Below are positions 36,106-50,637 of a stretch of DNA of 64,000 bases, in pieces (position 1 is the stretch's first letter; every line of letters starts with the position of its first letter). Position numbers and translations under genes: made by a program. The DNA is from Aquihabitans sp. G128 (lineage in GTDB: Bacteria > Actinomycetota > Acidimicrobiia > Acidimicrobiales > Iamiaceae). The stretch covers positions 3,410,001-3,474,000 of the forward strand of contig NZ_CP077604.1 in NCBI RefSeq assembly GCF_019048865.1, read 5' to 3'. Below the pieces are notes generated by a model that saw only the letters and a list, made by a program, of their open reading frames with translations, had not been told where the DNA came from and did not search any database.

Positions 36106-36208
36106 GGCTCGTCACGCACGCGCCGCCGGGCGCTCCTCGTTGTCGTGCCGCTGGCGCACCTCGGTGGTGTGCCCTCCCGCCTCTCGGCACAGCGAGGGAG
36201 CAGGTCAC

Positions 36209-36904
36209 GTGGCAGAGCTCATCGACCGGCGCCGTGCCGGCCGGGTGGCCGCAACGGCTCCGCAGGCGGCCCTGCGCTACGAGCCGGTCGTCGACCTCGC
36301 GACCTTCGCGGTCGTGGGGGCCACCGTCGTGGCGCCGAGCGGTGCCCGCCACGACCTCGCGCTCCTGGGCCGGGCCGCGGCGGAGTTCGCCCGGTCGGCC
36401 CCGCCCGCCTGGTGGTTGGCCGTGCCGCTCTCGCTGGACGGGCACCGCGGCCGGGAGGTCGCCGGATCGGTGGGGGCGGCGGCCGTGGCGGCCGGCCTGG
36501 CCCTCGACCGCCTCCTCGTCGAGGTCGACCCGTCGTGCTTCGCCGACCGCGCCGCCGCCGACGCGGTCCGAGGGCTCTCGGGCCTCGGCATCCGGGTGGG
36601 GCTCAGCGGTCTCGGGCCGCACCGGACCACCCTGGTGCACCTCCGCTCGGCACCGGTCGAGGTCGTCGTCCTCGACACGACCTGGGTCGGCGGCGCCGAC
36701 CCCGTGGGTCAGCGGACGCTGGCGGCGCAGCTCGCGGTCGCTCGGCGGCTCGGCCTGACCACCATGGCCACCGAGGTCGAGACCGGCGAGGGCGCGCTCC
36801 TCCTGGCGATGACCTCGTGCCAGCTGGCGCGTGGCCGGTGGTTCGGCGAAGCGCAGCCGATCGCCGCCCTCGCCCGCCGCCTCGCACCCGGTCGAGCCGT
36901 CTGA
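36209..36904 (+). CDS. Degenerate EAL-domain protein, probably catalytically dead
   Basis: 231 residues covering one EAL fold (YEPVVDLATFAVVGATVVAP at the start, VEVDPSCFADRAAADAV, GIRVGLSGLGPHRTTLVHL, VEVVVLDTTWVGG, TMATEVETGEGALLL, ARGRWFGEAQPI near the end). Comparison with active c-di-GMP phosphodiesterases shows the key residues gone: EAL/EVL is replaced by VGAT, the NxS segment is VPLSLDG, the DDFGTG motif is LSGLGP, and the Lys of KID is LDTTW. Only the E of TEVE and the final GxxxG-like strand remain. It is therefore likely a c-di-GMP-independent scaffold or binding protein. GTG start with GAGGGAG upstream. Its 3' end converges on the large LuxR regulator. Confidence 0.8.
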   Translation: MAELIDRRRAGRVAATAPQAALRYEPVVDLATFAVVGATVVAPSGARHDLALLGRAAAEFARSAPPAWWLAVPLSLDGHRGREVAGSVGAAAVAAGLALDRLLVEVDPSCFADRAAADAVRGLSGLGIRVGLSGLGPHRTTLVHLRSAPVEVVVLDTTWVGGADPVGQRTLAAQLAVARRLGLTTMATEVETGEGALLLAMTSCQLARGRWFGEAQPIAALARRLAPGRAV

Positions 36905-36923: not shown

Positions 36924-39362
36924 TCAGAGGACGCCCAGGCGTTGAGCCACCACCACCGCCTCGGCCCGCGACCGCACGCCGAGCTTCCGGTAGAGGTTGC
37001 GCAGGTGGGTCTTGAGCGTGTTGGGGGACAGGTAGAGGTCGCCGGCGATCGCCGCGAGCGAAGCAGGCCCGGCGATGGCCCCGAGGACCTCGGCCTCGCG
37101 GGCCGTGAGGCGGGCGGGATCGGGTTGGCCCGGGCCGGCCGGGTGCTCGAGCAGCGGGTGCCACGGGCCGGGGAGGGCGTTCAGGGCGACCCGGGCGGCG
37201 GCAGGGAGCTCGAGGAACGGCCCGGCCAGCGCCTCGGGCGCGGCCACGGCCAGGGCGGCCACGAGCTCGTCGGCGAGCGAGTCGCTCCCGACGTGAGCGG
37301 CGATCGTGGCCCGGGCGACCAACCGGTGCAACCGGGTGATCGGCCAGCTGGGGGCCCGCCAGGCCTCGACCTCCTCGGCGCGGGTCGGGTCCAGCTCGGC
37401 GAGGGCGACGACGGTGTCCGGCCCGATGGCGAGGTCGGCGAGCGCCGCCAAGGCCCGCCCTCGCTCGCCGAGGCGTCCGAGGGCCCGGGCGCGGAGTGCG
37501 CCGGCGCGCTGGTGCCAGGCGTCCCGGTGCGGCGCCCGCACCTCGTCGAGGAGCTGGAGCGCCAGGTCGGGATCGCCGGCGCGCAGGGCGGCCTGGGCCC
37601 GGATGGTGAGCGCCGCGGTGCGCCGGACCACCGAGCGCTGGCGGACGGCCACCTCGTCGGCTCGGGCCAGCGCGTCCTGGAGGAGGGCTTCGTCGCCCTG
37701 GAGGAGGCCGACCTGGGCGCGGGCCAGGTGGGCCTCGCCCAGCACGTGGTGGTCGGGCAGGCCGCGGTGGGCCGCTGCGGCGGTGGCGTCGGCAGCGTGG
37801 CGCAGGGCGGCCCGGGCCTCGCCTCGCAGCGCGTGGGCCCACGCCGCGGTGGCCTGGCCGTGGAGGCGGGGGAGGAACGCGACGGCGGGATCGTCGGCGA
37901 TCGCGTCCAGTCGGGCCACGGCGTGGTCCCAGCGGTACAGCAGGACCTCGGCCCGGGCGGCGGCCACCGCCGCCAGCGGTCGGGCGTGACCTGGGGGCTC
38001 GCCCGGGCCGGCGTCGGCGACCGTGGCGAGGGCCCGCTCGGCGCGGGCGAGGGCGACGTCGGCCCGGGTCCCGTGCAGGACGGAGGAGGCGAAGGTGGTG
38101 TCGTGGCGGACCTGTTGGGCGGGCGTCAGGCGGGGACGGTCGAGCGTGGCGCTGGCGAGCACGTCGGTGGCGGCCTCGTGCTGGCCCGCGCCGAGGGCGA
38201 GGGCTGCGTAGTGGAGCGCCGGCTCCGGGTCGCCGTCCCAGATCGGGCGCGGCACCACCTCGAACAACGACCAGAGGTCGTGGTCGTCGCCCTGCTCGGC
38301 GGCGCGGAGCGACGAGGCCACCAGGAGCTCCACCGCGCCGGCCCAGAGGCCGCGATCGACCAGCAGCTGGATGGCCCGGCGGGGGTGGTCGGCCTCCTGG
38401 TGCCACGCTGCGGCAGCTCGCGCCAGCTCCTGGGGCCGGGGGTCGGAGACCACCTCGAGCCGCCGTCGGAGCCCCGTGGCGAGGAGCGTCGGCAGCACGA
38501 GGGCGTCGCGATCGGTGGGGTCGGGCTCGAGGATCGGTTCGGTGCGCGCCAGGGCCACCAGCCGAGCGCCGGCACCCGGACCGAGGAGCGCGTCGGCCAG
38601 CCGAGGGGAGAGCCCGTCGACGGCCGCAGCCACGAGCAGCACCTCCACCTCCTCGGCCGAGCACGCGTCGACGACGGCGGTGGTCAGCACCTCCGCCAGG
38701 GCGTCCACGATGGCGTCGACCTCCTCGGGGGTGGGAGCTGCCTGGCGGCGGCCCAGCTCCGCGGCGGCCTTGGCCGCCGTGGCCCAGCCGCCGCTGCGCT
38801 GCGCCAGCTCCCGCACCCACCCCGGTGGGTCGGCGACGTCCTCGCCGGCGGCGCCCGCCAGGGCGGCGGCGTCGAGCGCGAGGTCGGCGTCGCCCAGCAC
38901 GCCGACGCGACCGTCGATGACCAGCCGCGCCACCGGCCAGTCGACGTAGCGGCGCGCGGTGGTGGCGGTCTGCACGCCGGCGTCCGCGTAGGCGCTGAGC
39001 TCGTCGGCGACGCGGTCGAGCTTCACGTCGTCGAGCAGGTGGAGGTCGTCGAACCCGACGAACGCCTCGGGCTCGTCGCGCAGCCGCTCGAAGAGGGAAC
39101 CGGGGCCCCGCGCCTCGATGGCGGCCCAGGCGGCCTCGACGGCGGGGAGCGCCGGCAGGCCGCCGAGGGCGGGCGCCGGGCCGGCGACCACGAGCCGGGC
39201 CCCGCCGCGGTCCCACGCCTCCCACCGGGCGGGGGCCGCCTGGTGCCGGCGCTGGAACCAGGTGGTGCGCCCGCTGCCCGGCCGGGCGACGAGGACGAGC
39301 AGGCGCGACCGGACGGGGTCCTCGTCCCGCCCGCCCTGCAGCACTCGCCCGGTCCCGTACAC
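36924..39362 (-). CDS. Large LuxR-family regulator of MalT/AAA-TPR type with degenerate P-loop
   Basis: 812 residues from GTG 39362. An N-terminal NTPase-like domain has LLVLVARPGSGRTTW in the Walker A position and AFVGFDDLHLLDD as Walker B. The invariant Walker A Lys is Arg (GSGRTT), so ATP binding may be weakened. A long all-helical middle (about 300-720) of Ala/Leu/Arg-rich repeats resembles TPRs. The C-terminal LuxR helix-turn-helix (about 750-812) reads LTAREAEVLGAIAGPASLAA and SPNTLKTHLRNLYRKLGVRS. STAND regulators like MalT and LAL proteins act as ligand-gated activators. GTG 39344 is a possible later start. The divergent neighbour is the exosortase-like gene, a plausible target. Confidence 0.85.
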   Translation of the reverse strand: MYGTGRVLQGGRDEDPVRSRLLVLVARPGSGRTTWFQRRHQAAPARWEAWDRGGARLVVAGPAPALGGLPALPAVEAAWAAIEARGPGSLFERLRDEPEAFVGFDDLHLLDDVKLDRVADELSAYADAGVQTATTARRYVDWPVARLVIDGRVGVLGDADLALDAAALAGAAGEDVADPPGWVRELAQRSGGWATAAKAAAELGRRQAAPTPEEVDAIVDALAEVLTTAVVDACSAEEVEVLLVAAAVDGLSPRLADALLGPGAGARLVALARTEPILEPDPTDRDALVLPTLLATGLRRRLEVVSDPRPQELARAAAAWHQEADHPRRAIQLLVDRGLWAGAVELLVASSLRAAEQGDDHDLWSLFEVVPRPIWDGDPEPALHYAALALGAGQHEAATDVLASATLDRPRLTPAQQVRHDTTFASSVLHGTRADVALARAERALATVADAGPGEPPGHARPLAAVAAARAEVLLYRWDHAVARLDAIADDPAVAFLPRLHGQATAAWAHALRGEARAALRHAADATAAAAHRGLPDHHVLGEAHLARAQVGLLQGDEALLQDALARADEVAVRQRSVVRRTAALTIRAQAALRAGDPDLALQLLDEVRAPHRDAWHQRAGALRARALGRLGERGRALAALADLAIGPDTVVALAELDPTRAEEVEAWRAPSWPITRLHRLVARATIAAHVGSDSLADELVAALAVAAPEALAGPFLELPAAARVALNALPGPWHPLLEHPAGPGQPDPARLTAREAEVLGAIAGPASLAAIAGDLYLSPNTLKTHLRNLYRKLGVRSRAEAVVVAQRLGVL

Positions 39363-39425
39363 AGGGAGAGAGGAACGATCGCGGCTCGCCACGTGACGGT
39401 GGGCGATCCGTTGTGGGCGAGAAGT

Positions 39426-39480: not shown

Positions 39481-40098
39481 GTGCGATCGTCAGGCTCGCC
39501 GGCCCTTGCCGGCCCCACTGCGCCCCGGAGCGCCGCCCTCGGGGCGGTCGCTCCCCTGCGCGGCGTGGCCGCCTTCGCCTTCCTCGCCGCGGCGGTCGCG
39601 CTCCTGGCCTGGAGCGGGCTCCAGGGCGTCGAGGCTGCCACCGCCGCCCGCCTGAGCCGCTGGCTGGGCACCACGGCGAGCGCCAACGGCTCGGTCGTGC
39701 GGGTCGTCGTCGACGCCCACCCCGACGATCCGGCCATCCCGGCGGGCGGCCGCGTGGAGGGCGGCTTCACCATCGCCCCGGGCTGCAGCGTCGCCTTGTT
39801 CCTGGCCCCGATGCTCGGCGCCGCCGCCCTGCTGGTGCGCAACCGCCGGCTGGCCGTGCGCGCCGTCGTGCGCGCCGCTCTGGTGGTGGGGCCCGTGCTC
39901 CTCCTGGTGTCGCAGGCTCGCTTCGTCGCCACCGCCCTCCTGATCGACCACGTCGGCCAGGACCGCGGCTTCGGCCTCGCCCACGTGCTGGTGGGCTCGA
40001 TCATCTCGACGGTCGGCCTCGTCGCCGGCCTCGGCACGTTCGTCTGGCTGTGCCTGCGCGCCGACGGATCGCCGTCCCCCTCGCCCCAACCAGCTTGA
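39481..40098 (+). CDS. Exosortase/archaeosortase-like membrane transpeptidase
   Basis: 205 residues, about four to five membrane helices. First helix VAAFAFLAAAVALLAWSG, then an outside loop of ~50 residues. A helix pair follows carrying the three residues that define exosortases: Cys in IAPGCSVALFLAPML, Arg in VSQARFVATALLI (family pattern N-x-x-R) and His in GFGLAHVLVGSIIS. Exosortases cut C-terminal sorting signals (PEP-CTERM and relatives) and attach the protein to a surface acceptor. The next gene encodes a secreted protein with such a C terminus. The call rests on motif order and topology; overall identity to named Xrt subfamilies cannot be judged here. GTG start; a CAGAGT box and another GTG at 39462 exist upstream in a different frame. 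Confidence 0.65.
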   Translation: MRSSGSPALAGPTAPRSAALGAVAPLRGVAAFAFLAAAVALLAWSGLQGVEAATAARLSRWLGTTASANGSVVRVVVDAHPDDPAIPAGGRVEGGFTIAPGCSVALFLAPMLGAAALLVRNRRLAVRAVVRAALVVGPVLLLVSQARFVATALLIDHVGQDRGFGLAHVLVGSIISTVGLVAGLGTFVWLCLRADGSPSPSPQPA

Positions 40099-40121
40099 TC
40101 CCCATCCAAGGAGAACCCGCC

Positions 40122-41111
40122 ATGCCCCGCAACGCCCCACGCCGTCGGACCCGACGGTTCGTCGCCTCCGTCGCCGCCGCGGTGGCCGTGACCTCGCTCA
40201 CCGGTGGGGCCGCCTCCGCGGCCCCGCTGCCCACCGACGCCCCGGCGCCGGGCATCTCCAAGGCCATGGCCAACGGGGTCAACGTCCGCCTCCTCGGCAC
40301 CGACCAGCTCATCCCCACGGTCCAGGCCAACAACGACGGCACCATCCACCCGTTCGCCACCAACCCGGCCAACGCCATCGTGGCCGACCTCCCCGACGCC
40401 ATCTCGGTCGGCGTGGTGGGCCAGGTCACCTACGCCTATCCCCGGGACACCACGTTCCACCCGGCGGCGCACCCGAACAACCTCCTGGTGTCGGCGGCCT
40501 GCTCCGGCTTGATCGCGGAGAACTCGCTGATCGAGATCGGCAACACCGGTGACTGCAGCTCCACCACGTCACCGTCGGACGGCATCCGCCTGGACCTGGG
40601 CGGCATCGGCCTCCGCGCCGGCGCGGCCTACTCGTCGTGCACCGTCGACAACCAGGGCTACTGGACCGGCGACTCCACGCTGGCCAGCGTGCGGCTGGTC
40701 ACCCCGGCCATCCCGCCGTTCATCCCGGAGGTCACGCTGTTCGAGGTCCCCATCGATCCGGACCGCAACTTCGGCATCGACCTCGGCATCGCCCAGGTGA
40801 TGATGAACAAGGCCACCATCATCGGTGGCGCCCAGGACGGCAACCTGATCACCGACTCCAACCTGCCCCTGCCCGCTGACGCCGACGGCGTCATGGTGGA
40901 GGCGCTCGACGTCACCGTGGGCGGTGCGCTGGGCGTCGAGACCGGGTTCCGGGTCGGCCAGTCGGTCTGCTACAAGAGCATCGCCGCCGCCCCGCCCCAG
41001 ATCCCGCTGGTCCCCAAGCAGGGCGTGCCGGTCGCGGCCAGCACCGCAGCGGGCCTGCTCGGCCTCGCCGCCCTCGGCTACCGCCGCCGGGCCACGGCCG
41101 CCACCCGCTGA
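40122..41111 (+). CDS. Secreted protein with C-terminal tripartite sorting signal, likely exosortase substrate
   Basis: 329 residues. Basic start and hydrophobic core (RRFVASVAAAVAVTSLTG, ending GGAASAAPL) form a Sec or Tat-like signal. The mature part is beta-rich with four Cys (AACSG, DCSST, SSCTV, SVCYK), in the style of choice-of-anchor domains. The C terminus is tripartite: a motif VPKQGVP, a helix of ~18 residues (VAASTAAGLLGLAALGY) and a basic tail RRRATAATR, as in proteins processed by exosortases or sortases. It lies 23 bases after the exosortase-like gene with a good AAGGAG ribosome site, so the two are likely one operon. A strong hairpin follows the stop. Confidence 0.75.
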   Translation: MPRNAPRRRTRRFVASVAAAVAVTSLTGGAASAAPLPTDAPAPGISKAMANGVNVRLLGTDQLIPTVQANNDGTIHPFATNPANAIVADLPDAISVGVVGQVTYAYPRDTTFHPAAHPNNLLVSAACSGLIAENSLIEIGNTGDCSSTTSPSDGIRLDLGGIGLRAGAAYSSCTVDNQGYWTGDSTLASVRLVTPAIPPFIPEVTLFEVPIDPDRNFGIDLGIAQVMMNKATIIGGAQDGNLITDSNLPLPADADGVMVEALDVTVGGALGVETGFRVGQSVCYKSIAAAPPQIPLVPKQGVPVAASTAAGLLGLAALGYRRRATAATR

Positions 41112-41124
41112 CCGCTTCCCGCAC

Positions 41125-41153
41125 GGGTGGGGCGGCAGCTCGCCGCCCCACCC
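41125..41153 (+). terminator. Strong hairpin terminator after the sorting-signal protein gene
   Basis: GGGTGGGGCGGC pairs perfectly with GCCGCCCCACCC around a 5-base AGCTC loop, starting 14 bases after the stop. There is no U-tract, as is common for high-GC actinobacteria. It would separate the exosortase pair from the LPVTG gene. Confidence 0.65.
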
Positions 41154-41231
41154 GACCGCGTGGCGACCACCACCGTCGCCCTGCGATCCCCTGATCGGCG
41201 TGCTCGGCACGCACCACGAGAGGACCCCCAG

Positions 41232-41423
41232 ATGTATCGATCGATCCGGCCCGGAGCCGGCGTCGCCGTCGCCGGCGCCAGCACCACCGCTGCCGTCAAC
41301 GCCACCCACCTCCCCGTCACGGGCGCCAACGTGCTCGTCCTGTTGGTCGTCGGCCTGACCCTGGTCGCGCTCGGCTTCGTGCTGCTGCGCGCCCGGCTGC
41401 AGGCCCAGGCCTCCGCCCGTTGA
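41232..41423 (+). CDS. 63-residue LPVTG mini-protein
   Basis: A very small protein consisting of ~25 residues (MYRSIRPGAGVAVAGASTTA...), the sortase motif HLPVTGANV, one long hydrophobic helix (LVLLVVGLTLVALGFVLL) and a basic end (RARLQAQASAR). This is a textbook LPXTG cell-wall sorting signal with almost no cargo. The N-terminal half is only a weak signal-peptide candidate. GAGAGGA lies 8 bases before the ATG, so it is a real translation unit. It could be a peptide anchored to the wall, a membrane mini-protein, or a decoy/tag for a sortase. No sortase gene is in the window. Confidence 0.7.
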   Translation: MYRSIRPGAGVAVAGASTTAAVNATHLPVTGANVLVLLVVGLTLVALGFVLLRARLQAQASAR

Positions 41424-41478
41424 CCCCCCGTCGCCCCCCAGCCGACGGTCGCCGTGGGGTCGCCACGGCCGCCGGCTG

Positions 41479-42834
41479 ATGGGCGACCTGGGGCTGCTCC
41501 CTGCGGTCAACACCCTCGCCTTCCTGCTGTGCGTGGTCTTCCTGAGCTACGTCACCATGATCGTGGTGGCGTACCTCCGGGAGGGCCCGCACGCGGCAGG
41601 TGACCCCACGTCGTTCGCCTGGCACGTGCTCGTGCCCTGCCTCGACGAAGCCCGCGTCGTCCGCCGCTCCGTCGAGCGGATGCTGGCCGACCTGCCGCAG
41701 GTGCACGTGTGGTGCATCGACGACGCGTCCACCGACGACACCCTCGCCATCCTGCGGAGCCTCGAAGGCCGGTCGCCACGGGTGCACGTCGTGGCCCGCA
41801 CGCTGCCGGAGGCCCGCCAGGGCAAGGGCGAAGCCCTGAACGCCGGATGGGCGGCCATCCGCGCCTGGGTGCCGGCCACCACCGATCGGGCATCGGTCCT
41901 GGTCGGCGTGGTCGACGCCGACGGCGAGCTCGACGTCGGCGCGCTCCGGGCCCTCTCGGGCCCGGACTACTTCGCCGACCCCACCGTCGGCGCGGTGCAG
42001 CTGGCGGTGCGCATCGCCAACCGCTCCACCGGGCACCACGTCCGGACCACCGGGTGGGCCCGCCAGCTCCTCGTCGACCTCCAGGACGTCGAGTTCATCG
42101 GTCCCATCGCCGGGATGCAGCTGCTGCGCCGCCGTTCGGCCAGCGTCTCCATGGGCGGCAACGGCCAGTTCACCCGGCTGTCGATCCTCGACGACATCGC
42201 CTCGTGGGCCGGGACCCCGTGGCACGGGGCGCTCCTGGAGGACTTCGAGCTGGGCCTCCACGTCCTGCTCTCGGGGATGCGCACCGCCTACTGCCACCAC
42301 AGCGCCGTCTCCCAAGAGGGCCTGAGCTCGTTGCGGCTGCTGGTCCGCCAGCGCAGCCGGTGGGCCCAGGGGTCCATGCAGTGCGCGCAGTACCTGCGGC
42401 CCGTGATGGCGAGCACCCGCGTGGGCAACCTCGCCGCGTTCGAGATCTGCTACTTCCTGCTGATGCCGTGGATCCAGCTGGTGGGCACGGTCATCTACGT
42501 CTTCGCGTACCTCATCCTCGTCTGGTACCTCGCCACCGTCGGCCTCTCGCCGGGGGCCTGGATCGACTCCGGCCAGTGGGGCGTGCTGCCGCTCCTGTTC
42601 CTCGGCGGCATCGGCCCGTTCTTCATCTGGGGCCCGCTGTACCGGCGCCGGACCGAGCCGGCCACCACCCGCCGGCGCGCCGTGGTGCTGGGCTTCGCCT
42701 CCTGGATCTACTCGAACCTGCACTACGTGGCCACCTGGTGGGCCTTCGCCCGGGTGCTCGCCGATCGGGACGACTGGAAGAAGAGCGAGCGGGTCTCGGG
42801 CCCGTCCGCCGAGGCCCCGGCGGTGGCGCCGTGA
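41479..42834 (+). CDS. Processive GT2 glycosyltransferase (hyaluronan/poly-GlcNAc synthase-like)
   Basis: 451 residues. One N-terminal helix (VNTLAFLLCVVFLSYVTMIV), then a GT-A domain with VPCLDEARVVRRSVERM, the nucleotide-sugar DxD at VGVVDADGEL, the catalytic-base region LLEDFELGLHV and the processivity motif RQRSRW. Four further helices and a cytoplasmic C terminus follow. This is the layout of membrane polysaccharide synthases that polymerise and export a sugar chain. Sugar unknown; the next gene makes UDP-ManNAc from UDP-GlcNAc, suggesting a HexNAc polymer. First gene of a five-gene operon in which every junction overlaps by four bases. Confidence 0.88.
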   Translation: MGDLGLLPAVNTLAFLLCVVFLSYVTMIVVAYLREGPHAAGDPTSFAWHVLVPCLDEARVVRRSVERMLADLPQVHVWCIDDASTDDTLAILRSLEGRSPRVHVVARTLPEARQGKGEALNAGWAAIRAWVPATTDRASVLVGVVDADGELDVGALRALSGPDYFADPTVGAVQLAVRIANRSTGHHVRTTGWARQLLVDLQDVEFIGPIAGMQLLRRRSASVSMGGNGQFTRLSILDDIASWAGTPWHGALLEDFELGLHVLLSGMRTAYCHHSAVSQEGLSSLRLLVRQRSRWAQGSMQCAQYLRPVMASTRVGNLAAFEICYFLLMPWIQLVGTVIYVFAYLILVWYLATVGLSPGAWIDSGQWGVLPLLFLGGIGPFFIWGPLYRRRTEPATTRRRAVVLGFASWIYSNLHYVATWWAFARVLADRDDWKKSERVSGPSAEAPAVAP

Positions 42835-43998
42835 GCGCGCCGCCGAACGACGAGGTCGTGGTGGTGGCCGGCACCCGGCCGGAGGCCATCAAGGTCGCGC
42901 CGCTGGTGCACGCGCTGCGCGAGCCGGGCTCGCCCTGGCGCGCCCACCTCATCGGCACCGGCCAGCACCCGGACCTGGCCGACCAGGCCCTGGCCGACCT
43001 CGGCCTGTTCGCCGACGAGCGCCTCGCCCTCGATCCCGCCGACCGGTCCTCGCAGGGTCGGCTCCTCGCCGCCCTGCTCCCGCGCCTCGAAGCCGCCATC
43101 GGTCGTCGCCCTGCGGCGGCCGTGGTGGTCCAGGGCGACACCGCGAGCGCCCTCGCCGGCGGCCTGGCGGCCCTGTGGTCCCGGGTCCCGCTGGTGCACC
43201 TGGAGGCCGGGCTGCGCAGCGGCGACCTCGCCCACCCGTTCCCCGAGGAGGCCTACCGCCGCCAGCTCGGGACCATCAGCGCCCTGCACCTCACGCCCAC
43301 ACCGCGCGCCACGGCCAACCTCCTCGCCGAGGGGACCGCGCCGGAGCGGATCTGCTGCACGGGCAACACCGTCGTCGACGCCACCCGCCGCATCGGCCGC
43401 GCGCCGCTCCCGCCCGAGTTGGTCCCCGCCACCGGCCTCCGCCGGGTGCTGGTCACCGTGCACCGGCGCGAGAGCTGGGGCGAGCCGTTGGCCGCCGTGC
43501 TGTCGGCCATCGCCGCGCTGGCCGACGAGCTGCCCGACATCGAGGTCCTGGTCCCCGTCCACCCCAACCCCCGCGCGCGAGGTGGTCCACGGGCTGCTGG
43601 GCGGCCGCGACCGGATCCGGCTGGTCGAACCGCTGCCGTACCGCCAGCTCATCGGGGTGTTGGCGTCGTCGGCGCTGGTGCTCACCGACTCCGGCGGCAT
43701 CCAGGAGGAGGCGCCCTCGTTGGGCGTGCCCGTCCTGGTCTTGCGCGAGGTCACCGAGCGGCAGGAGGCCGTCGATGCCGGCTGCGCCCGGCTCGTGGGC
43801 ACCGACGCCGCCGTGGTCCTCGCCGAGGCCCGTCGCCTGCTGCTCGATCGCGGCGCGTGGGAGCAGATGGCGCAGGTCGCGAACCCGTTCGGCGACGGCC
43901 ACGCCGCCGAGCGAGCCGTCGCGGCCATCGGCGCGCTGGTGGCCGGCGATCCGCTGCCGACCTCGTGGCAGCCGGCTGGCCGCGAGGGTGCCCGATGA
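42831..43998 (+). CDS. wecB: UDP-N-acetylglucosamine 2-epimerase (WecB-like), frameshifted
   Basis: Restored length 388 residues, about normal (370-390). Non-hydrolysing epimerase interconverting UDP-GlcNAc and UDP-ManNAc. Motifs: VVVAGTRPEAIKVAPLVHAL, VQGDTASALAGGLAAL, LVHLEAGLRSGDLAHPFPEE, CCTGNTVVDA, and VLTDSGGIQEEAPSLGVPVL followed by TERQEAVDAG. Midway, EVLVPVHPNP is followed by a break in or next to the C/GC run at 43568-43580, after which REVVHGLLGGRDRIRLVEPL continues in another frame. Removing one C gives HPNPAREVVHG; a two-base deletion giving HPNPRVREVV is equally possible. GTG start overlaps the upstream TGA. Confidence 0.88.
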
Positions 43999-44810
43999 GC
44001 GGCCGGGCTCGGCTGCTCGGTCCCGTCGTCGCCGTCCTGGCGACCGTGGTCGCCATCGTGCCGTCGCTGGTCGGCGGCCGGGCGGCCGACGGCGTGGGGA
44101 TGGCCGGCCAGCGGGCGGGGACCTGTCACGACCTGCTCGAGATCGAGGAGCAGTACGCGGTGAGCGACGCCCGGCCACCGGTGCCGTGCGCCGCGACCCA
44201 CCTCGCCGAGACCATGGCCCTGAAGCGGCTGCCGGCTCGGCTCGCCGACTCGGCCGAGCGCCCCAGCCTGGAGCGGCTGCAGCTGCTGGCGCCGGGCCTG
44301 AGCTGCGGGTACGCCGACGTCGTCCGGTACCTCGGCAGCGATCCGCTCGACCCCCACTGGTTCGTCACCACCGAGGTGCGGTTCCCCTCGGCGGCGGCGT
44401 GGGCGAAGGGCGAGCGCCGCTTCCGCTGCGACGTGGTCGGGTCCCGTCGCGACAGCGACGGCCGGCCCACCCGCCGGGGGTCGCTGCGGAAGATCATGGA
44501 GACGCCGACGAGCGCGGCGGTGCGCCCGTGCCTGCTCGAGGGCTCGATCGTCCCGTGTGACCTCCCCCACGACAGCGAGGTCGTCGCCGGCGAGGGGCCA
44601 CCGGTCGGTGGCGGCGCGCCGCGCGCCGAGTTCGAGGACAGCTGCCCCATCGCGGTCTCGGCCTTCGTGGGCGGCAAGCTGCCGGCCGGCACCGCCGCGG
44701 CGGTCACCGACCTGGTGCCGGGCCACGCCTACTGCGTGCTCCGGCTGCCGCCGGCCGCCGGTCCGCAGCGCGGCACGCGGGCCGTGCAGGCGAAGGGCGG
44801 CGGGTCGTGA
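43995..44810 (+). CDS. Membrane-anchored Septum_form-like protein
   Basis: 271 residues. An uncleaved or signal helix (LLGPVVAVLATVVAIVPSLV, about 7-26) leads to an outside domain with paired Cys (AGTCHDLLE, PPVPCAATHLAE, GLSCGYADVV, FRCDVVGS, VRPCLLEG, VPCDLPHDSE, DSCPIAVSA, AYCVLRLP). The repeated C-x-HxxE pattern (VPCAATHLAETM, VPCDLPHDSEVV) is the hallmark of the actinobacterial Septum_form domain found near cell-division loci. Exact role unknown. It is coupled by 4-base overlaps to wecB and to the following membrane protein. Confidence 0.75.
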   Translation: MSGRARLLGPVVAVLATVVAIVPSLVGGRAADGVGMAGQRAGTCHDLLEIEEQYAVSDARPPVPCAATHLAETMALKRLPARLADSAERPSLERLQLLAPGLSCGYADVVRYLGSDPLDPHWFVTTEVRFPSAAAWAKGERRFRCDVVGSRRDSDGRPTRRGSLRKIMETPTSAAVRPCLLEGSIVPCDLPHDSEVVAGEGPPVGGGAPRAEFEDSCPIAVSAFVGGKLPAGTAAAVTDLVPGHAYCVLRLPPAAGPQRGTRAVQAKGGGS

Positions 44811-47495
44811 GGGGCCACTCGGTGCGGATGGCGCTGGTCGTGGGCGTCGTCGTCACCATCGTCGCCCTGCTCCGGCTGCTCGTGCCGACCGCCATCGGCC
44901 TGGGCGACCAGGGCGACGCCCACCGGGCCACGTGCCAGCTCGACGTCGCCATGTCGTCCACCTGGACCGAGCGCACGACGCCGGACCGCAGCGCGTCGGC
45001 CTTCGTGCCCTTCCGCTGGGAGGACCACCGCTGGTACGGCGAGACGTGTGGCGCCGACGGCACCGGTGAGACCTACCGGACCACCGAGGTCACCCTCCTC
45101 CGGGGCGCCGAGCTGCTCACCCCGCTGCTGGGCTTCGACGGCGCGCTGGACCTGCGAGCCCTTGCCGTCCTCTCGTCGGTGGTGCTCGGGGTGCTGTCGG
45201 GCGTGGCCTGCCTCGTGCTGCCGGGCCGCCCAGGCGTCCGCGCCGGCATCGTCGCCCTCCTCGTGGCCGTCCTGCTCGACCAGCAGGTCGCCGGCGTGTT
45301 CGCGTCGGGCTACAGCGAGCCGGCGGCGCTGCTCGGCCTGTTCGCCGTGGTGCTGGCGGCACTGGCCGTCCTGCGCCGCCGCGAGGCGTCGGCCACCGCG
45401 CTCCTGGCCCTGGCCGGCGCCGGGGCGTTCACCGTCCTGGCCAAGACCCAGATGGTGGCGGTCGCCCCCCTCGTGGTCGCCGCGCTGGTGTGGCGCCCCA
45501 GCCGGGCCCGCCCGGCCGGCGGGCGGGGGCGCCTCGCCGGGCTCCGGGCCCGGTCTCTCGGGCTGCTGCTGGCCGTCGGCCTCCTTGCGGTGACCGGCTG
45601 GTACGTGCAGGCCCAGCCGGCACGGTTCACCGCCCTCAACCGCCACAACCAGATCTTCGCGACCCTGCTCACCCTCGACGACCAGCCCGAGGCCGACCTG
45701 CGCTGGTTCGGCCTCGACCCGAAGCTGGCGCGTGCGGCCGGCACCAACATCACCCAGGACCCCGAGGTCACGGGCTCGCTCGCCTACGAGCAGGTGGCGG
45801 GGGTGTCCGAGGCCGATGTCGCTCGCTTCTACGCGCTGCACCCCGGTCGCCTGGGCCTGTTGCTGCGGCGGGGCCTCGACGCCGCAGCCTCACCGGACAG
45901 CACGAGCTACCTCGGCTCCTACGCCGACACCGCCCACGAGGCGCCCTACGCGCGGGAGAACCGGCTGTGGCTCTCCTCGGCGTTCTTCGAGGTCGCCGAC
46001 GCCGTGCCCGCGGTGCTGGTGCTGGTGGTCCTCACGTCGCTCGGCGCCTCGATCCTGCTCGTGCGACGCACCGACGACCCGGCGGTCGAGGGCCCCGCCC
46101 TGGTCTCGGCGGGCGTGGCGATCGCTGCGGTCCTCGCCTTCGGCGCAGCCGTGTTCGGCGACGGCCTGGTGGAGCTCGGCCGCCACCTGCTCATCGCCGA
46201 CGTGCTCATCGCCTGGGCCCTGCCGTTGACGGTGGCCGCCGCCCTCGGCGCCCGCAAGGCGCGTCCGGCCCCGGCCGTGCCGCCCGACGTGGCCGCCAAG
46301 CGGGGCCTGCCGGTCCCTGCGCCGGACGAGGTCGTCGTCGACGAGCCGGTCGAGGCGGTCCGCCCCCCGGTGCTGGTGCCCGCCAGCGTCGGGGCGTCGA
46401 CGCTGGCCTGGCCCCCCTCCGCCGTCGAGCGTGACGACCGGGCCCCGAGCCTCGTCGCCGCCCCGCCCGCCGGCGCCGAGGCCGGCGACGGCGGCACGCG
46501 CGTCGACGGGCAGGGCGACGGCCCCACCGGGCCCGACGACGACCGGCCGGTCGACTTCGACGCCCTGCTCCGCCAGTTCCTCGACGGCGATCCCGACAGC
46601 GATCACCGGGTGCCCAGCTCGCGCGTCGGCATCCTCCGCCGCCGTCGCCGCGCTCGCCAGCGCGCCACCTCGGCCTCCGCAGGTCCGGTCCCGACCCCGT
46701 CGGCCACCGTCGTTCCGCCCGCCCCGGACCCCCTGCCCGAGCCGATCCCGGCGCCCACCCTCGAGCCCGAGCCAGAGCCGGACCCCGCGCCTCGACCCGA
46801 GCCGACACCGCCTGCGCCCGTCGTCGCGCCCGAGCCGAGCCCGGTCTCCACCCACGAGCCCGAGCCGATGGCCGTCCCGGGCTCGACCCCCGACCCGGAG
46901 CCCGTCACCGAGGCCGCCACGGTCCGCGCGCCCGTGCCCGTGTCCGCGGCGACGCCGACGCCGACGCCGACCCCCGCGGGGACCCCGGACCTCGAGCGCG
47001 AGCCGAGCCCGGACCCTGCGCCCCGGACGGATCCCGACCCCGCGCCGGTGCCGGAGCAGGGACGCGAACCCGAGCCCGAGGCGGCGCCGGTCTCGACGCC
47101 CCCCCGCCGATCCGGCACCGACCCCCGCGGTCGACCCGGACCCGGACCCCGAGCCGGTCCCGGACCCGGTGCCGACCCCGACGCGGCGCGAAGAGGCCGA
47201 ACCGGTGGCCGCCCCCGCCGCCGCGCCGCGCCCGCGGCCTCGGCGACGGTTGGACCCACCGCCGGCCCCCGCCCCGGCGCGGACGCCGGCGCCCCGCGCC
47301 CGACCGGAGCCCACGTCGGCGCCGCGCGTGCCGTCCCGGCCGGCTCCCGAGCCCGAGCCGGCGCCCGAAGCCCTTCCGGCCCCCGACGTCGACTGGCTCA
47401 ACGCCGACGACGACGCCTTCCTCGCCGCCCTGCGGGCCCGCCGCCCTGCGCCCACCGACCCCCACCATCCCCGCGACCCAGGAGCACGACCATGA
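44807..47495 (+). CDS. Polytopic membrane protein (GT-C-like) with ~350-residue Pro/Glu tail, frameshifted
   Basis: Restored length 895 residues. The first ~490 contain roughly ten membrane helices with an early outside loop holding LGDQGDAHR after helix 1, a position where GT-C glycosyltransferases keep their acidic catalytic site. No named family recognised. The rest is cytoplasmic-looking: an acidic helix PVDFDALLRQFLDGDP, an Arg cluster (ILRRRRRARQR), ~250 residues of PEPEPxP/PTPTP low complexity and a second acidic helix DVDWLNADDDAFLAALRARR at the end. The break is at seven C (47099-47105). With six C the tail runs to a stop at 47495 that overlaps the next gene's ATG, confirming the frame. 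A handoff to the DivIVA-like neighbour is inferred. Confidence 0.75.
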
Positions 47496-48568
47496 CCACC
47501 CGATCCGCCGAAGAGATCTCCAGCCAGCAGTTCCCCATGGTGCGGCGTGGCTACGACCCCGTCGCCGTGCGGGCCTTCCTCACCGAGCTGGCCGACGACG
47601 TGGGGGACCCGCAGCTGGAAGCCGCCGCCGAGCGTGCCGCAGCCGTCGAGGCGGCGGCCGAGGCCGCCGCCGCCGAGCGGCTCGCCCAGGCCGACCGGGA
47701 GGTGGGGGCGGCCCAGGCCCGGCTCGCCGAGCTCGAGGCCAAGGCGGCCGCAGCCGAGGCCTCGATCGCCGACGGGGAGCACGAGCGGGCCCGCCTGCGC
47801 GGTGGCGGCGAGCAGGAGGCCGCCGCCCTGGTGGCCGATGCCGACTCGCGTGCCGCCGCCCTGCTCGCCGATGCCGAGCAGCAGGCGGAGGCGATCGTCG
47901 CCGATGCCAAGGCCGAGGCCGAGGACGTCTACCGGGGCCGGTGGCAGGAGGCGGGCGGCATGGTCACCCGCATCCTCGAGGCTGCCGAGGCCGAGGCCAG
48001 CCAGCTGACCGAGAACGCCGAGGCCGTGGCCGTCGACATCCGCAACAGCCTCCAGGCCGAGGTGACCCGCATCCGCGCCGAGGCCGAGCGCAACGCCGCC
48101 GAGGTCCGGGCCCGGGCCGAGGAGTTCGCCGACGCCCGCCTGGCCAGCGCCGAGTCCGAGCGCGAGCAGGCGCTGGAGTCGCTGGCCGCCGCCAAGGCCG
48201 AGTCCGAGCGGGTGGAGGCCGAGGGCGTGGCCCGCGCCGCCTTCGCCCTGCGGCGCGCCGAGGACGCGGTCAAGGCCCACGTGTCGGAGCAGCTGTCGGC
48301 GGCCCGCCAGGAGATGGCGCGGCTGCGCGGCGACGAGGTCGAGATCACCGCCCGCCTGTCCCGCGTCCACGAGCTGGTGGCCACCTCCCTCGAGGTGACC
48401 GCGTCGACCCCCGAGCCCGCGGTGGCCCAGCCGGAGGCGTTCCTCCTGCGGCTCGCCGACCAGGACGAGGAGGCCGACGACGACCGGGACCCCGACGTCG
48501 ATGCCGTCGTGGAGCCCGACCAGCGGGACGACGACCGTCCGTCGCGCTCGACGGCGTGGCCCGCCTGA
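47492..48568 (+). CDS. DivIVA-domain coiled-coil protein
   Basis: 358 residues. The N terminus (ISSQQFPMVRRGYDPVAVRA, FLTELADDV) is a DivIVA/Wag31 membrane-curvature domain. About residues 45-290 are nearly pure Ala/Glu/Arg heptads, a long coiled coil, and the last 60 are acidic (DQDEEADDDRDPDVDAV). DivIVA-type proteins gather at poles or septa and recruit wall or polymer-synthesis enzymes. The classical Wag31 of this organism is expected elsewhere in a division cluster, so this is probably a paralogue dedicated to the polysaccharide operon that it ends. ATG overlaps the upstream stop by four bases. Confidence 0.85.
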   Translation: MTTRSAEEISSQQFPMVRRGYDPVAVRAFLTELADDVGDPQLEAAAERAAAVEAAAEAAAAERLAQADREVGAAQARLAELEAKAAAAEASIADGEHERARLRGGGEQEAAALVADADSRAAALLADAEQQAEAIVADAKAEAEDVYRGRWQEAGGMVTRILEAAEAEASQLTENAEAVAVDIRNSLQAEVTRIRAEAERNAAEVRARAEEFADARLASAESEREQALESLAAAKAESERVEAEGVARAAFALRRAEDAVKAHVSEQLSAARQEMARLRGDEVEITARLSRVHELVATSLEVTASTPEPAVAQPEAFLLRLADQDEEADDDRDPDVDAVVEPDQRDDDRPSRSTAWPA

Positions 48569-48577
48569 GGAGTTCGC

Positions 48578-49888
48578 TCAGACCCGCTCGGCCAACCAGC
48601 GGCCGAGGTCGGCGCCCCGCTGGGCGGGCGACCAGAGGTAGCCCTGGCCGAGCGTGCAGCCCAGGGCGGCCAGGCGCGGCGGCTGCGACGGATCGTCGAT
48701 CCCCTCGGCCACCAGGACCAGCCCGAGGCGGCGGCACACCAGGCCGAGCCCCTCGATGAGGGCCTCGGCCGGCGGGGCGGGCAGGTGGGCGACCACCCGT
48801 CGGTCGACCTTGAGCTCGTCGACCCGGTGGTCGACCAGGGCGTCGATGGCGCCCAGGCCCGTGCCGAAGTCGTCGAAGGAGATCCGGAAGCCGGCGGCCC
48901 GCAGGCCGTCGATGGCGGCCCGGGCGCCGCCGATGCCGGCCAGGCGGGCCGTCTCGGTGATCTCGAGGCACACCGTGCGACGGGCCCGGCCCGGCCCGCT
49001 GGCCCGGTCCCAGGTTTCCTCCAGGTCGGCGACGACGTCGGGGTGCCCGAGCTCCTGCGGAGACAAGTTGATGGCGAGGTGGAGGCGGCGGGCGGGATCG
49101 ATGTCGTCGAGCTGCTCGAGGGCGGTGGCCAGCACCCGGGGCCCCAGGCCCTGGACCAGGCCGAAGTGCTCGGCCAGGTCCATGAACTGCTGGGGGTGGA
49201 CCGGACCGTGCACCGGGTGGTTCCACCGCAGCAGCGCCTCGGTGCCCACGACCGAGCCATCGACGAGCTGGACCTGGGGCTGGTGGACGACCTCGAACGC
49301 GTCGGCTCCCAGCGACGACGCCAGGTCCCGGCGGATGGCGGCGGCCCGGCCGACGTGGGGCCCCCAGTGCACCGGGCCGCGGACGCCGAGGTCGCGGGCG
49401 AGGGTGCAGCACGCGCCGGCCTGGTCGACGAGGTCGGCCAGCCGGTCGCCGGGCTGGCCCTCGGCCACGCCGAGCAGGGCATCGAGGGCGTGGGCCCGGG
49501 CCCCGAGGCGGGCCGGCGCGGCCAGCAGCTCGGCCAGGTGGCGAGCCGCCGTCGGCCCGTCCTCGTCGAGGTCGACGACCGGCACGACCACGAGCAGGCG
49601 CGTCCCGGCGTCGCGGGCCGCGACCCAGCCGGCGGGGAGCGGCGCCAGCCGGGCGGCCACCTGGCGCAGGGCGTCGTCGGCGGCCCGCTGGCCGAGCTCG
49701 GCGGCGATCCGGGGCAAGCCGTCGAGCTCCGCCACGACCACCGCGAGGGACCGGGACCCCCAGGCGGGGGCCAGGTCGTCGAGCCGACGCTGGTTGGCCA
49801 GCCCGGTGAGCGGGTCGAGCCGGGACAGCTCGGTGACGGCGGCCAGCTGGCGGCGGAGGGCGGCCGCGCTGCCGACGGCGGTGGTCAC
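48578..49888 (-). CDS. Degenerate-GGDEF plus active-type EAL protein (c-di-GMP phosphodiesterase)
   Basis: 436 residues, no membrane helix. A GGDEF-fold domain (about 15-165) starts LSRLDPLTGLANQRRLDDL but has DAGTRLLVVV where GGDEF should be, so it cannot cyclise GTP. The EAL domain (about 185-430) keeps all key residues: HQPQVQLVDG, TEALLRWNHP (EAL), INLSPQEL (Asn), CLEITETARL (Glu), SFDDFGTGLGAID (Asp-Asp), ELKVDRR (Lys), VAEGIDD (Glu) and GYLWSPA. It should hydrolyse c-di-GMP, perhaps with GTP as allosteric signal. GTG overlaps the stop of the sigma-factor gene (GTGA), so the two are co-expressed. Confidence 0.9.
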   Translation of the reverse strand: MTTAVGSAAALRRQLAAVTELSRLDPLTGLANQRRLDDLAPAWGSRSLAVVVAELDGLPRIAAELGQRAADDALRQVAARLAPLPAGWVAARDAGTRLLVVVPVVDLDEDGPTAARHLAELLAAPARLGARAHALDALLGVAEGQPGDRLADLVDQAGACCTLARDLGVRGPVHWGPHVGRAAAIRRDLASSLGADAFEVVHQPQVQLVDGSVVGTEALLRWNHPVHGPVHPQQFMDLAEHFGLVQGLGPRVLATALEQLDDIDPARRLHLAINLSPQELGHPDVVADLEETWDRASGPGRARRTVCLEITETARLAGIGGARAAIDGLRAAGFRISFDDFGTGLGAIDALVDHRVDELKVDRRVVAHLPAPPAEALIEGLGLVCRRLGLVLVAEGIDDPSQPPRLAALGCTLGQGYLWSPAQRGADLGRWLAERV

Positions 49889-50637
49889 CCGCGGGCCGGG
49901 TTGCCCGAGCCGGCCGCCTGGTGGGCGCGCGGCGCCGGGGCCGACCCGACCTCCGGGCACGGCTGGCCGCACTCGGCGCACGGCTCGAGCTCGTCGGCCG
50001 GGCGACCCCGGCGGGCGGCGGCCGGGCGGGAGCAGTCGGGCAGGTGCCGGGGCGTGGTGGCGGCGGCGTAGGCCTTGCGCAGGCGGGTGCGGGCCCGGTA
50101 GCTGCGGGCGGCCGCGGCGCCGGCGGTGGTGCCCAGCCACCCGCTCAGGTCGTGGGGCGTCCAGCCGTCGACCTCGGTGGCCCACAGGATGTCCTGGTCC
50201 TGGCGGCTGAGCCCGGCGAGGACGTCGTTGGTGGGGCCCTCGGGCAGGTCGATCTCCAGCGGCGGGGCGGCCTCGGCGAGGTGCCGGTGCAGCTCGAGGT
50301 CGTCCATCGGCTGCTCGTGGCGGGTGCGGGTGGCGTAGAGCCGTGCCGCGAGGCGGCGGATGGCCACCGCGACGTAGTGGTCGTAGCGCTCCGACGGGCC
50401 GTGGCCGTTCGAGAGGGCGCGCAGGGTGTTCTCGACGGCCACCGCGACGAGGTCCTCGGCGTCGCTGCGGCTCGATGCCACCGACAGCGCCACGCCCAGG
50501 GCGAAGCGGCGGTGGCGCTCGAACAGCTCGCCGTAGGCCTGGGCGTCGCCCACGCGCGATCGTGCCAGCAGCTCGCTCTCGGTCAGCGCCCGCAGGCCCT
50601 GCCGATCGCGCTGGTGGTTGGTCTCCCGACCGTGCAT
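49885..50637 (-). CDS. ECF-like sigma factor with Cys-rich C-terminal extension
   Basis: 250 residues. Region 2 is visible as LLARSRVGDAQAYGELFERH and DAEDLVAVAVENTLRAL. Region 4 is TNDVLAGLSRQDQDILWATE followed by WTPHDLSGWLGTTAGAAAAR and a basic helix. A ~60-residue extension ends with Cys residues (LPDCSRPAAARRGRPADELE, PCAECGQPCPEVG), reminiscent of a zinc-anti-sigma-like sensor fused to the sigma factor. AGGAGG is 9 bases before the ATG. Coupled to the EAL protein downstream. Confidence 0.78.
   Translation of the reverse strand: MHGRETNHQRDRQGLRALTESELLARSRVGDAQAYGELFERHRRFALGVALSVASSRSDAEDLVAVAVENTLRALSNGHGPSERYDHYVAVAIRRLAARLYATRTRHEQPMDDLELHRHLAEAAPPLEIDLPEGPTNDVLAGLSRQDQDILWATEVDGWTPHDLSGWLGTTAGAAAARSYRARTRLRKAYAAATTPRHLPDCSRPAAARRGRPADELEPCAECGQPCPEVGSAPAPRAHQAAGSGNPARG

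Follow-up and report, generated by a model that had tools for sequence, protein, structure and literature searches.

What would an exosortase do in an actinobacterium that encodes it next to a single secreted protein, a sorting signal with no cargo and a set of polysaccharide genes? We investigated this question in Aquihabitans sp. G128, using a window of 64,000 nucleotides (NZ_CP077604.1, positions 3,410,001 to 3,474,000) that lies within one 4.94-Mb contig (G000). Eight plus-strand genes at 39481-48568 of the window encode, in order, an exosortase, a secreted protein, a mini-protein with an LPVTG motif, a family 2 glycosyltransferase (GT2), the UDP-GlcNAc 2-epimerase WecB, a Septum_form (SF)-domain protein, the transferase WsfD and a DivIVA-domain protein. 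All of them were found, by open frames and model scans, where an earlier note on this DNA had listed them, although that note missed two frame breaks and did not name the polytopic protein as WsfD. In our reading the block is a cassette like those of the actinobacterial XrtP, XrtR and XrtS, a dedicated exosortase system coupled to a surface polymer. We put the probability of the full mechanism, including a mini-protein that works with the substrate, at roughly 70%.

The first gene (39481..40098) encodes a protein of 205 aa that passes the curated cut-off of TIGR04178, the exosortase/archaeosortase superfamily (25.1 vs 23). The exosortase named in the earlier note was thus upheld at the level of the superfamily and not at that of XrtP, XrtR or XrtS, whose cut-offs it does not reach. 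Residues E51, C102, R147, G159, H168 and G172 were invariant across 24 aligned rows, and an AF2 model built from this alignment was confidently helical (pLDDT 90.4, pTM 0.80). A comparison with solved structures returned one match by sequence, at E 0.19, and none by Foldseek at E up to 0.001. On the tree, the enzyme belongs to an unnamed group of seven near XrtP, XrtR and XrtS. Six enzymes of the group were scanned singly (window; G017; L037, from the same contig as L048; L050; L160; L161; L and G numbers denote our loci and genomes), and all six meet TIGR04178 while none meets XrtP, XrtR or XrtS.

The second gene (40122..41111) encodes the candidate substrate, a choice-of-anchor-P-like secreted protein with an N-terminal helix and a C terminus of the form IPLVPKQG-helix-YRRR. 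Two Cys residues are invariant when it is aligned with 10 cassette partners, and the G017 partner meets the choice-of-anchor P model NF040603 with a score of 38.3. The structure model of the window protein was poor (pLDDT 57.4), with no structural match at E up to 0.001. A PxxPxxG motif before the C-terminal helix was observed in 7/7 partners of the window's exosortase group (window, G017, L048, Pedococcus L050, Mangrovihabitans L051 and L160, and Acidimicrobiaceae L161), compared to 0/23 partners of other exosortases. It was also found in one of 111 other proteins of the loci that have a C-terminal helix and a basic tail. The count covers 30 partners, with L053, L067 and L097 omitted as near copies and with the partners of L070 and L109 included though not adjacent; no partner was found in L055, L060, L061, L065, L073 or L038, some of which are at contig ends. 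The C terminus that the earlier note had described as VPxxG-helix-RRR therefore does recur, as the signal of one exosortase group. A shorter candidate, '[IV]P[LMIV]' in place of VPxxG, was overturned, as PxxPxxG proved to be the signal of the window's own group. Other groups carry curated signals: the L162 partner meets CoaP-CTERM (59.6/35), and the partners of L052 (58.4/27), L062 and L064 meet PVV-CTERM.

Enzyme and signal also agree on the tree, where the seven PxxPxxG-partnered exosortases form one side of a branch with support 86/75. The motif required one change on the tree, compared to a mean of 6.4 after shuffling, and 0/500 shuffles were as low. The predicted pairing of PxxPxxG with this exosortase group is new, in that no NCBIfam model here recognises it.

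The third gene (41232..41423) encodes a mini-protein of 63 aa, MYRS...LPVTG-helix-R, a free-standing sortase-type sorting signal that meets the LPXTG anchor model TIGR01167 (20.8 vs 15.9). We collected 40 such proteins, all of 45-71 aa except one of 112. The sorting motif is a canonical L[AP]xTG in 35 of them, FAGTG in two from Mobilicoccus and LAHAG in one, and two are motif-free. The linker is Gly-rich (median Gly 0.375 over a median of 15 residues, 37 members measured), and the charge pattern suggests that the N terminus lies outside. At residue 2, 34 members have Tyr and six have Ser, whereas across the loci a Tyr codon comes after 345/28316 ATG; the residue-2 counts are biased, as M[YS] was preferred when starts were chosen. 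The curated model LAXTG_small_WW (NF058583) is missed by the window protein (25.1 vs 65), and 19 of 26 aligned mini-proteins match it at E up to 0.01. Because the L162 mini-protein is above its cut-off (88.9/65) and that of L161 is not (27.2/65), NCBI has modelled one branch of these proteins. A profile of the mini-protein used alone for counting was rejected: it matches ordinary LPXTG C termini, with hits in 236/396 genomes of the phylum, and standalone length and context were therefore used instead.

Under a strict definition, the mini-protein was present at 28/32 exosortase-positive GT loci and at 3/50 negative ones, where negative means that no exosortase was found at the GT locus (Fisher p 2e-14, kinship ignored). 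Two loci at contig ends, L049 and L076, were given no state. Across 200 random pairings with 5 independent pairs, the mini-protein went the same way as the exosortase in 4.4 and the opposite way in 0.0, although a test with only five pairs cannot reach 0.05. Six of the 50 negatives are from genomes (Amycolatopsis, Lentzea) that match the exosortase strongly outside the GT locus, and two from Actinoplanes do so weakly. When four of those six genomes were read with flanks (L162-L165), the mini-protein was found in 4/4. Three further loci, L064, L067 and L070, are negative in the locus table yet contribute to the 40 members. Of eight loci reached through the exosortase, L161-L165 have a mini-protein; it is missing from L160 and from the large-exosortase loci L166 and L167. 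A strict search over the 0.57 Mb that lie no more than 3 kb from the GT returned 28 mini-proteins; the 0.95 Mb outside gave four doubtful ones, which have GTG starts and no ribosome-site-like sequence and lie inside frames of 260-1315 aa.

The position of the gene links it to the substrate as well. It follows the substrate gene directly in 23/40 cases, L162-L165 included, where the opposite strand carries the exosortase and GT; in L048 the two are again together on the other strand, with the mini-protein first. By the strict definition, both mini-protein and exosortase are absent from the GT groups of Streptomyces and of Brachybacterium/Brevibacterium. We regard the mini-protein as a putative general exosortase partner that extends beyond the curated LAXTG_small_WW branch, and in this role it is new.

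From the fourth gene onward, the cassette turns to polysaccharide. The GT2 (41479..42834) is of the XrtP-associated glycosyltransferase type, and its motifs DD, DAD, ED and QRSRW are invariant in 3 rows. It is followed by wecB (42831..43998), by the SF-domain protein (43995..44810, from a candidate start), which meets PF13845 on 44022-44810 (60.5 vs 25), and by a polytopic hexose transferase with a Pro/Glu-rich tail (44807..47495) that is WsfD by NF051875 (246.3 vs 80; 248 on a second scan). The last gene (47492..48568) encodes a coiled-coil protein that meets the DivIVA-domain model TIGR03544 (33.8 vs 22) and misses Pfam PF05103 (19.9 vs 28). With the candidate starts used, neighbours from GT through wecB, SF and WsfD to DivIVA overlap by 4 nt, and the DivIVA gene is therefore coupled to the operon. 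A promoter and terminator scan gave nothing promoter-like; its one hit, on the minus strand, resembles a terminator.

Named genomes were scanned with the GT, and the 80 best of 143 relatives were carried forward. An exosortase lies near the GT in 29 of these 80 (34/86 sources; L037 and L048 are one contig). Within seven genes of the GT, the 29 exosortase-positive loci have wecB in 21, WsfD in 11 and SF in 10, whereas DivIVA was found in 0/80 loci with a profile made from the window protein alone. The gene order whose conservation the earlier note had wanted checked is thus conserved in part, and its DivIVA component is not, as far as this profile shows. The loci come from Acidimicrobiales, Arthrobacter, Curtobacterium, Pedococcus and Pseudonocardiaceae, and also from Frankia, Kitasatospora, Propionibacteriales and Micromonosporaceae, among others. 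Because the parts recur in so many Actinomycetota, the gene set is more than a chance grouping. The exosortase itself is patchy: its profile matched 5/396 genomes of the phylum including its own, three of them weakly (9 candidates scored per genome), and the window enzyme alone as query matched 3/61 relatives.

The same genome has a second cassette on the minus strand (L035:8324-12442; G000:C1, about 3124300-3128450). It encodes a 635-aa secreted protein with an isopeptide-forming-type domain, a 54-aa LAATG mini-protein, a broken GT and an XrtS-like exosortase (130.2 vs a cut-off of 145). A different arrangement was observed in Actinoplanes (L166:4524-10405 and L167:5318-11088), where a GT, a 716- or 668-aa protein with an exosortase-like part and wecB accompany a 181-aa protein ending in PAGGNG-helix-basic; no mini-protein was seen there, and this is apparently another exosortase type. 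Weaker exosortase matches occur in other actinobacteria (L169, L170, L171), two of them adjoining a GT (3.4 kb each).

Several of these components belong to systems that are already catalogued. Exosortases were linked to polysaccharide genes with PEP-CTERM/EpsH (PMC1569441), which shares with the window the Cys/Arg/His enzyme, the tripartite C-terminal signal and the polysaccharide genes. That system is found in outer-membrane bacteria, often with many substrates per genome; our comparison covers the neighbouring substrate only. In print for a Gram-positive, a Firmicute, is the exosortase XrtG, whose system has two GTs besides its CTERM protein (PMC12854382); it differs in its enzyme and GT models, TIGR03111 giving only 21.5/363.95 for the window GT. 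A further known counterpart is the class E sortase/LAxTG signal, which the mini-protein carries without a cargo domain and from a gene that accompanies an exosortase. NCBIfam already models XrtP, XrtR, XrtS, the XrtP-associated GT, CoaP-CTERM, PVV-CTERM, WsfD and LAXTG_small_WW. Among the matches listed in searches of the openly readable literature, none dealt with the mini-protein or with XrtP, XrtR or XrtS.

A close relative is the XrtP system (NF012139, NF053845, NF053846, NF058583). L162 meets all four of its cassette models, with XrtP at 269.9/200 and the GT at 731.8/520 besides the LAXTG_small_WW and CoaP-CTERM scores above, and wecB adjoins the L162 cassette too. The window differs from it in enzyme, GT and mini-protein scores, has PxxPxxG instead of CoaP-CTERM, and adds SF, WsfD and DivIVA. 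SF and WsfD also stand beside GT and exosortase in the XrtS/PVV-CTERM choice-of-anchor G system (NF033767, NF051874) of Arthrobacter and others, where L054 meets XrtS at 175.7 vs 145; compared to that system, the window has a different signal and a different enzyme group. The earlier note's grouping of an exosortase, a substrate that belongs to it and genes for a polysaccharide is supported, but its description of an undescribed system does not survive, given that NCBIfam models cover the whole XrtP cassette and the XrtG system is published. What is new, and seen in one genome, is the addition of SF, WsfD and DivIVA to the cassette of the window's group.

Gene identities, conserved residues, the match of enzyme to signal and linkage were read from the sequence, and from them we infer the chemical steps, the sugar and the topology. 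After export the substrate would stay anchored to the membrane through its C-terminal helix, to be cleaved at or near PxxPxxG by the exosortase. For this the enzyme would use Cys102 with Arg147 and His168, and it would then transfer the substrate to an amine-bearing surface acceptor, by analogy with the archaeosortase ArtA, for which the authors' model has an amine-bearing lipid as acceptor (PMC7157517). WecB would provide UDP-ManNAc, and the processive-type GT2 would form a ManNAc-containing polymer from it. WsfD may add lipid-carried hexose branches outside the membrane; the WecB and WsfD pairing fits because WsfD of P. alvei is thought to add branching glucose onto ManNAc in the S-layer glycan (PMC2943079). 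The mini-protein would sit in the membrane as a peptide whose N terminus faces outward; it would display a class E sortase signal and work with the substrate. The genome has two sortases, both scoring best as class E (179.2/160 and 130.1/160, one above the cut-off), and SrtE1 of S. coelicolor cleaves LAETG and LPETG (PMC5148588).

A number of observations weigh against this reading. The window exosortase is far below the cut-offs of XrtP (NF012139, 52.8 vs 200), XrtR (NF012138, 46.9 vs 150) and XrtS (NF033767, 38.8 vs 145), misses the gathering score of Pfam Exosortase_EpsH (PF09721, 16.4 vs 25.7) and has only 30 percent identity to its closest tree row. Two further models are narrowly missed, NF040603 by the substrate (23 vs 27) and the XrtP-associated glycosyltransferase model NF053846 by the GT (498 vs 520, E 2e-149). 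The group of seven was recognised by its motif before the tree was used to test it; the branch support carries no star, and in the L161 partner only one Arg follows the helix. Neither SF nor WsfD was found next to the cassette of G017, and the G043 contig is only 8.6 kb. Finally, wecB is broken in the sequence as given, where TIGR00236 matches in two frames, over its positions 3-243 and 249-362, and the break falls between about 43574 and 43582; the WsfD tail also has a frame break, near 47100, and the GT of the second cassette is interrupted by a frame change as well. Frame breaks in both cassettes of one contig, at 92 percent completeness, suggest assembly error, and those at 43574-43582 and about 47100 are probably such errors.

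Other explanations concern the mini-protein. It could simply be a very small substrate of class E sortase, or it could carry glycan, with Tyr2 or Ser2 as a possible O-glycan site, and so fix the polymer to the wall. The regular L[AP]xTG motif and the residue-2 counts, biased as they are, would fit this, and Tyr-linked S-layer glycans exist (PMC2943079). A sortase was matched in 33/35 genomes searched. However, both Mobilicoccus genomes keep the mini-protein with no sortase matched, and at the majority of GT loci with wecB and without an exosortase it is absent by the strict definition. We consider this explanation doubtful. As a separate observation on sortases, a class E-like sortase gene in the same genome (L041:114-1896) directly follows the gene for a 337-aa protein with a C-terminal helix and an Arg-rich tail, possibly as a dedicated pair.

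The mini-protein might equally belong to the exosortase or GT as a small subunit in the membrane, with LAxTG incidental. Several loci have it closely coupled to Xrt or GT starts, the motif is non-canonical or missing in 5/40, and the Mobilicoccus genomes, which gave no sortase match, retain it. One-helix small proteins with an MS start and without LxxTG also precede the GT at some exosortase-free loci (Amycolatopsis L101, L102 and L106). A canonical motif in seven-eighths of the members is, however, very regular for an incidental feature, and L162-L165 encode the mini-protein apart from Xrt and GT, beside the substrate; a subunit role seems a poor bet. The related idea that loss of LAxTG tracks loss of the sortase was rejected as a rule: it fits FAGTG in the two genomes that gave no sortase match and fails for L064, L067 and S. 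melanogenes.

Rather unlikely, in our view, is a relay in which the cleaved substrate is ligated by the exosortase onto the mini-protein's outward-facing N terminus, and a class E sortase then fixes the LAxTG product to peptidoglycan. It draws on a mini-protein that is nothing but sorting signal and Gly-rich linker, on its shared presence and absence with the exosortase, on its place directly 3' of the substrate gene and on the amine-bearing acceptor modelled for ArtA. Met before Tyr is normally kept, however, so the relay nucleophile would be Met, which counts against it. LPLTG/LPVTG mini-proteins also occur directly before GT and wecB at L103:9710-9865, L105:3823-3969 and L108:9688-9855 (Virgisporangium, Dactylosporangium), in genomes where the exosortase profile had no match (G508-G510; 72 of 100-130 candidates scored each). 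Conversely, Mangrovihabitans has two exosortases and a mini-protein was found beside neither, and the motif is lost in Curtobacterium L064 and L067 and in S. melanogenes L070 despite sortases. The motif-free Amycolatopsis proteins, if counted as mini-proteins, would loosen the exosortase link, and the five tree-based pairs are too few to establish it. It is improbable that the acceptor of actinobacterial exosortases in general is a gene-encoded membrane peptide of ~45-70 residues with a class E signal, whose sortase then moves the joined protein to the wall; if true, two unrelated sorting enzymes would act in series via a trans-acting sorting tag.

A DivIVA-directed polar or septal glycopolymer machine, as the earlier note had envisaged, is very improbable: the start of the DivIVA gene overlaps the WsfD stop and ArtA localises to midcell (PMC7157517), but DivIVA is unconserved near the GT as far as the one-seed profile saw and DivIVA domains match at five other places in the genome, and polar or septal localisation is therefore a guess.

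An EAL-domain protein (36203-36901, plus strand) and a GGDEF-EAL protein (48581-50185, minus strand) lie on either side of the cassette, and c-di-GMP control of the polymer is possible. Between the first of these and the cassette, a large regulator with a LuxR-type GerE domain (36927-39404, minus strand) is divergent from the exosortase gene.

To our knowledge, the attachment target of bacterial exosortase substrates is unsettled; it has been described as 'some new moiety' (PMC11980579). The cassette read here as a dedicated exosortase system is compact, made up of a single enzyme, the substrate next to it and one linked peptide, and this makes the attachment question directly testable. Its PxxPxxG signal and exosortase group would add an enzyme-signal pair to those known. 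By linking a sortase-type tag to an exosortase, the cassette brings together two sorting systems that are usually treated apart.

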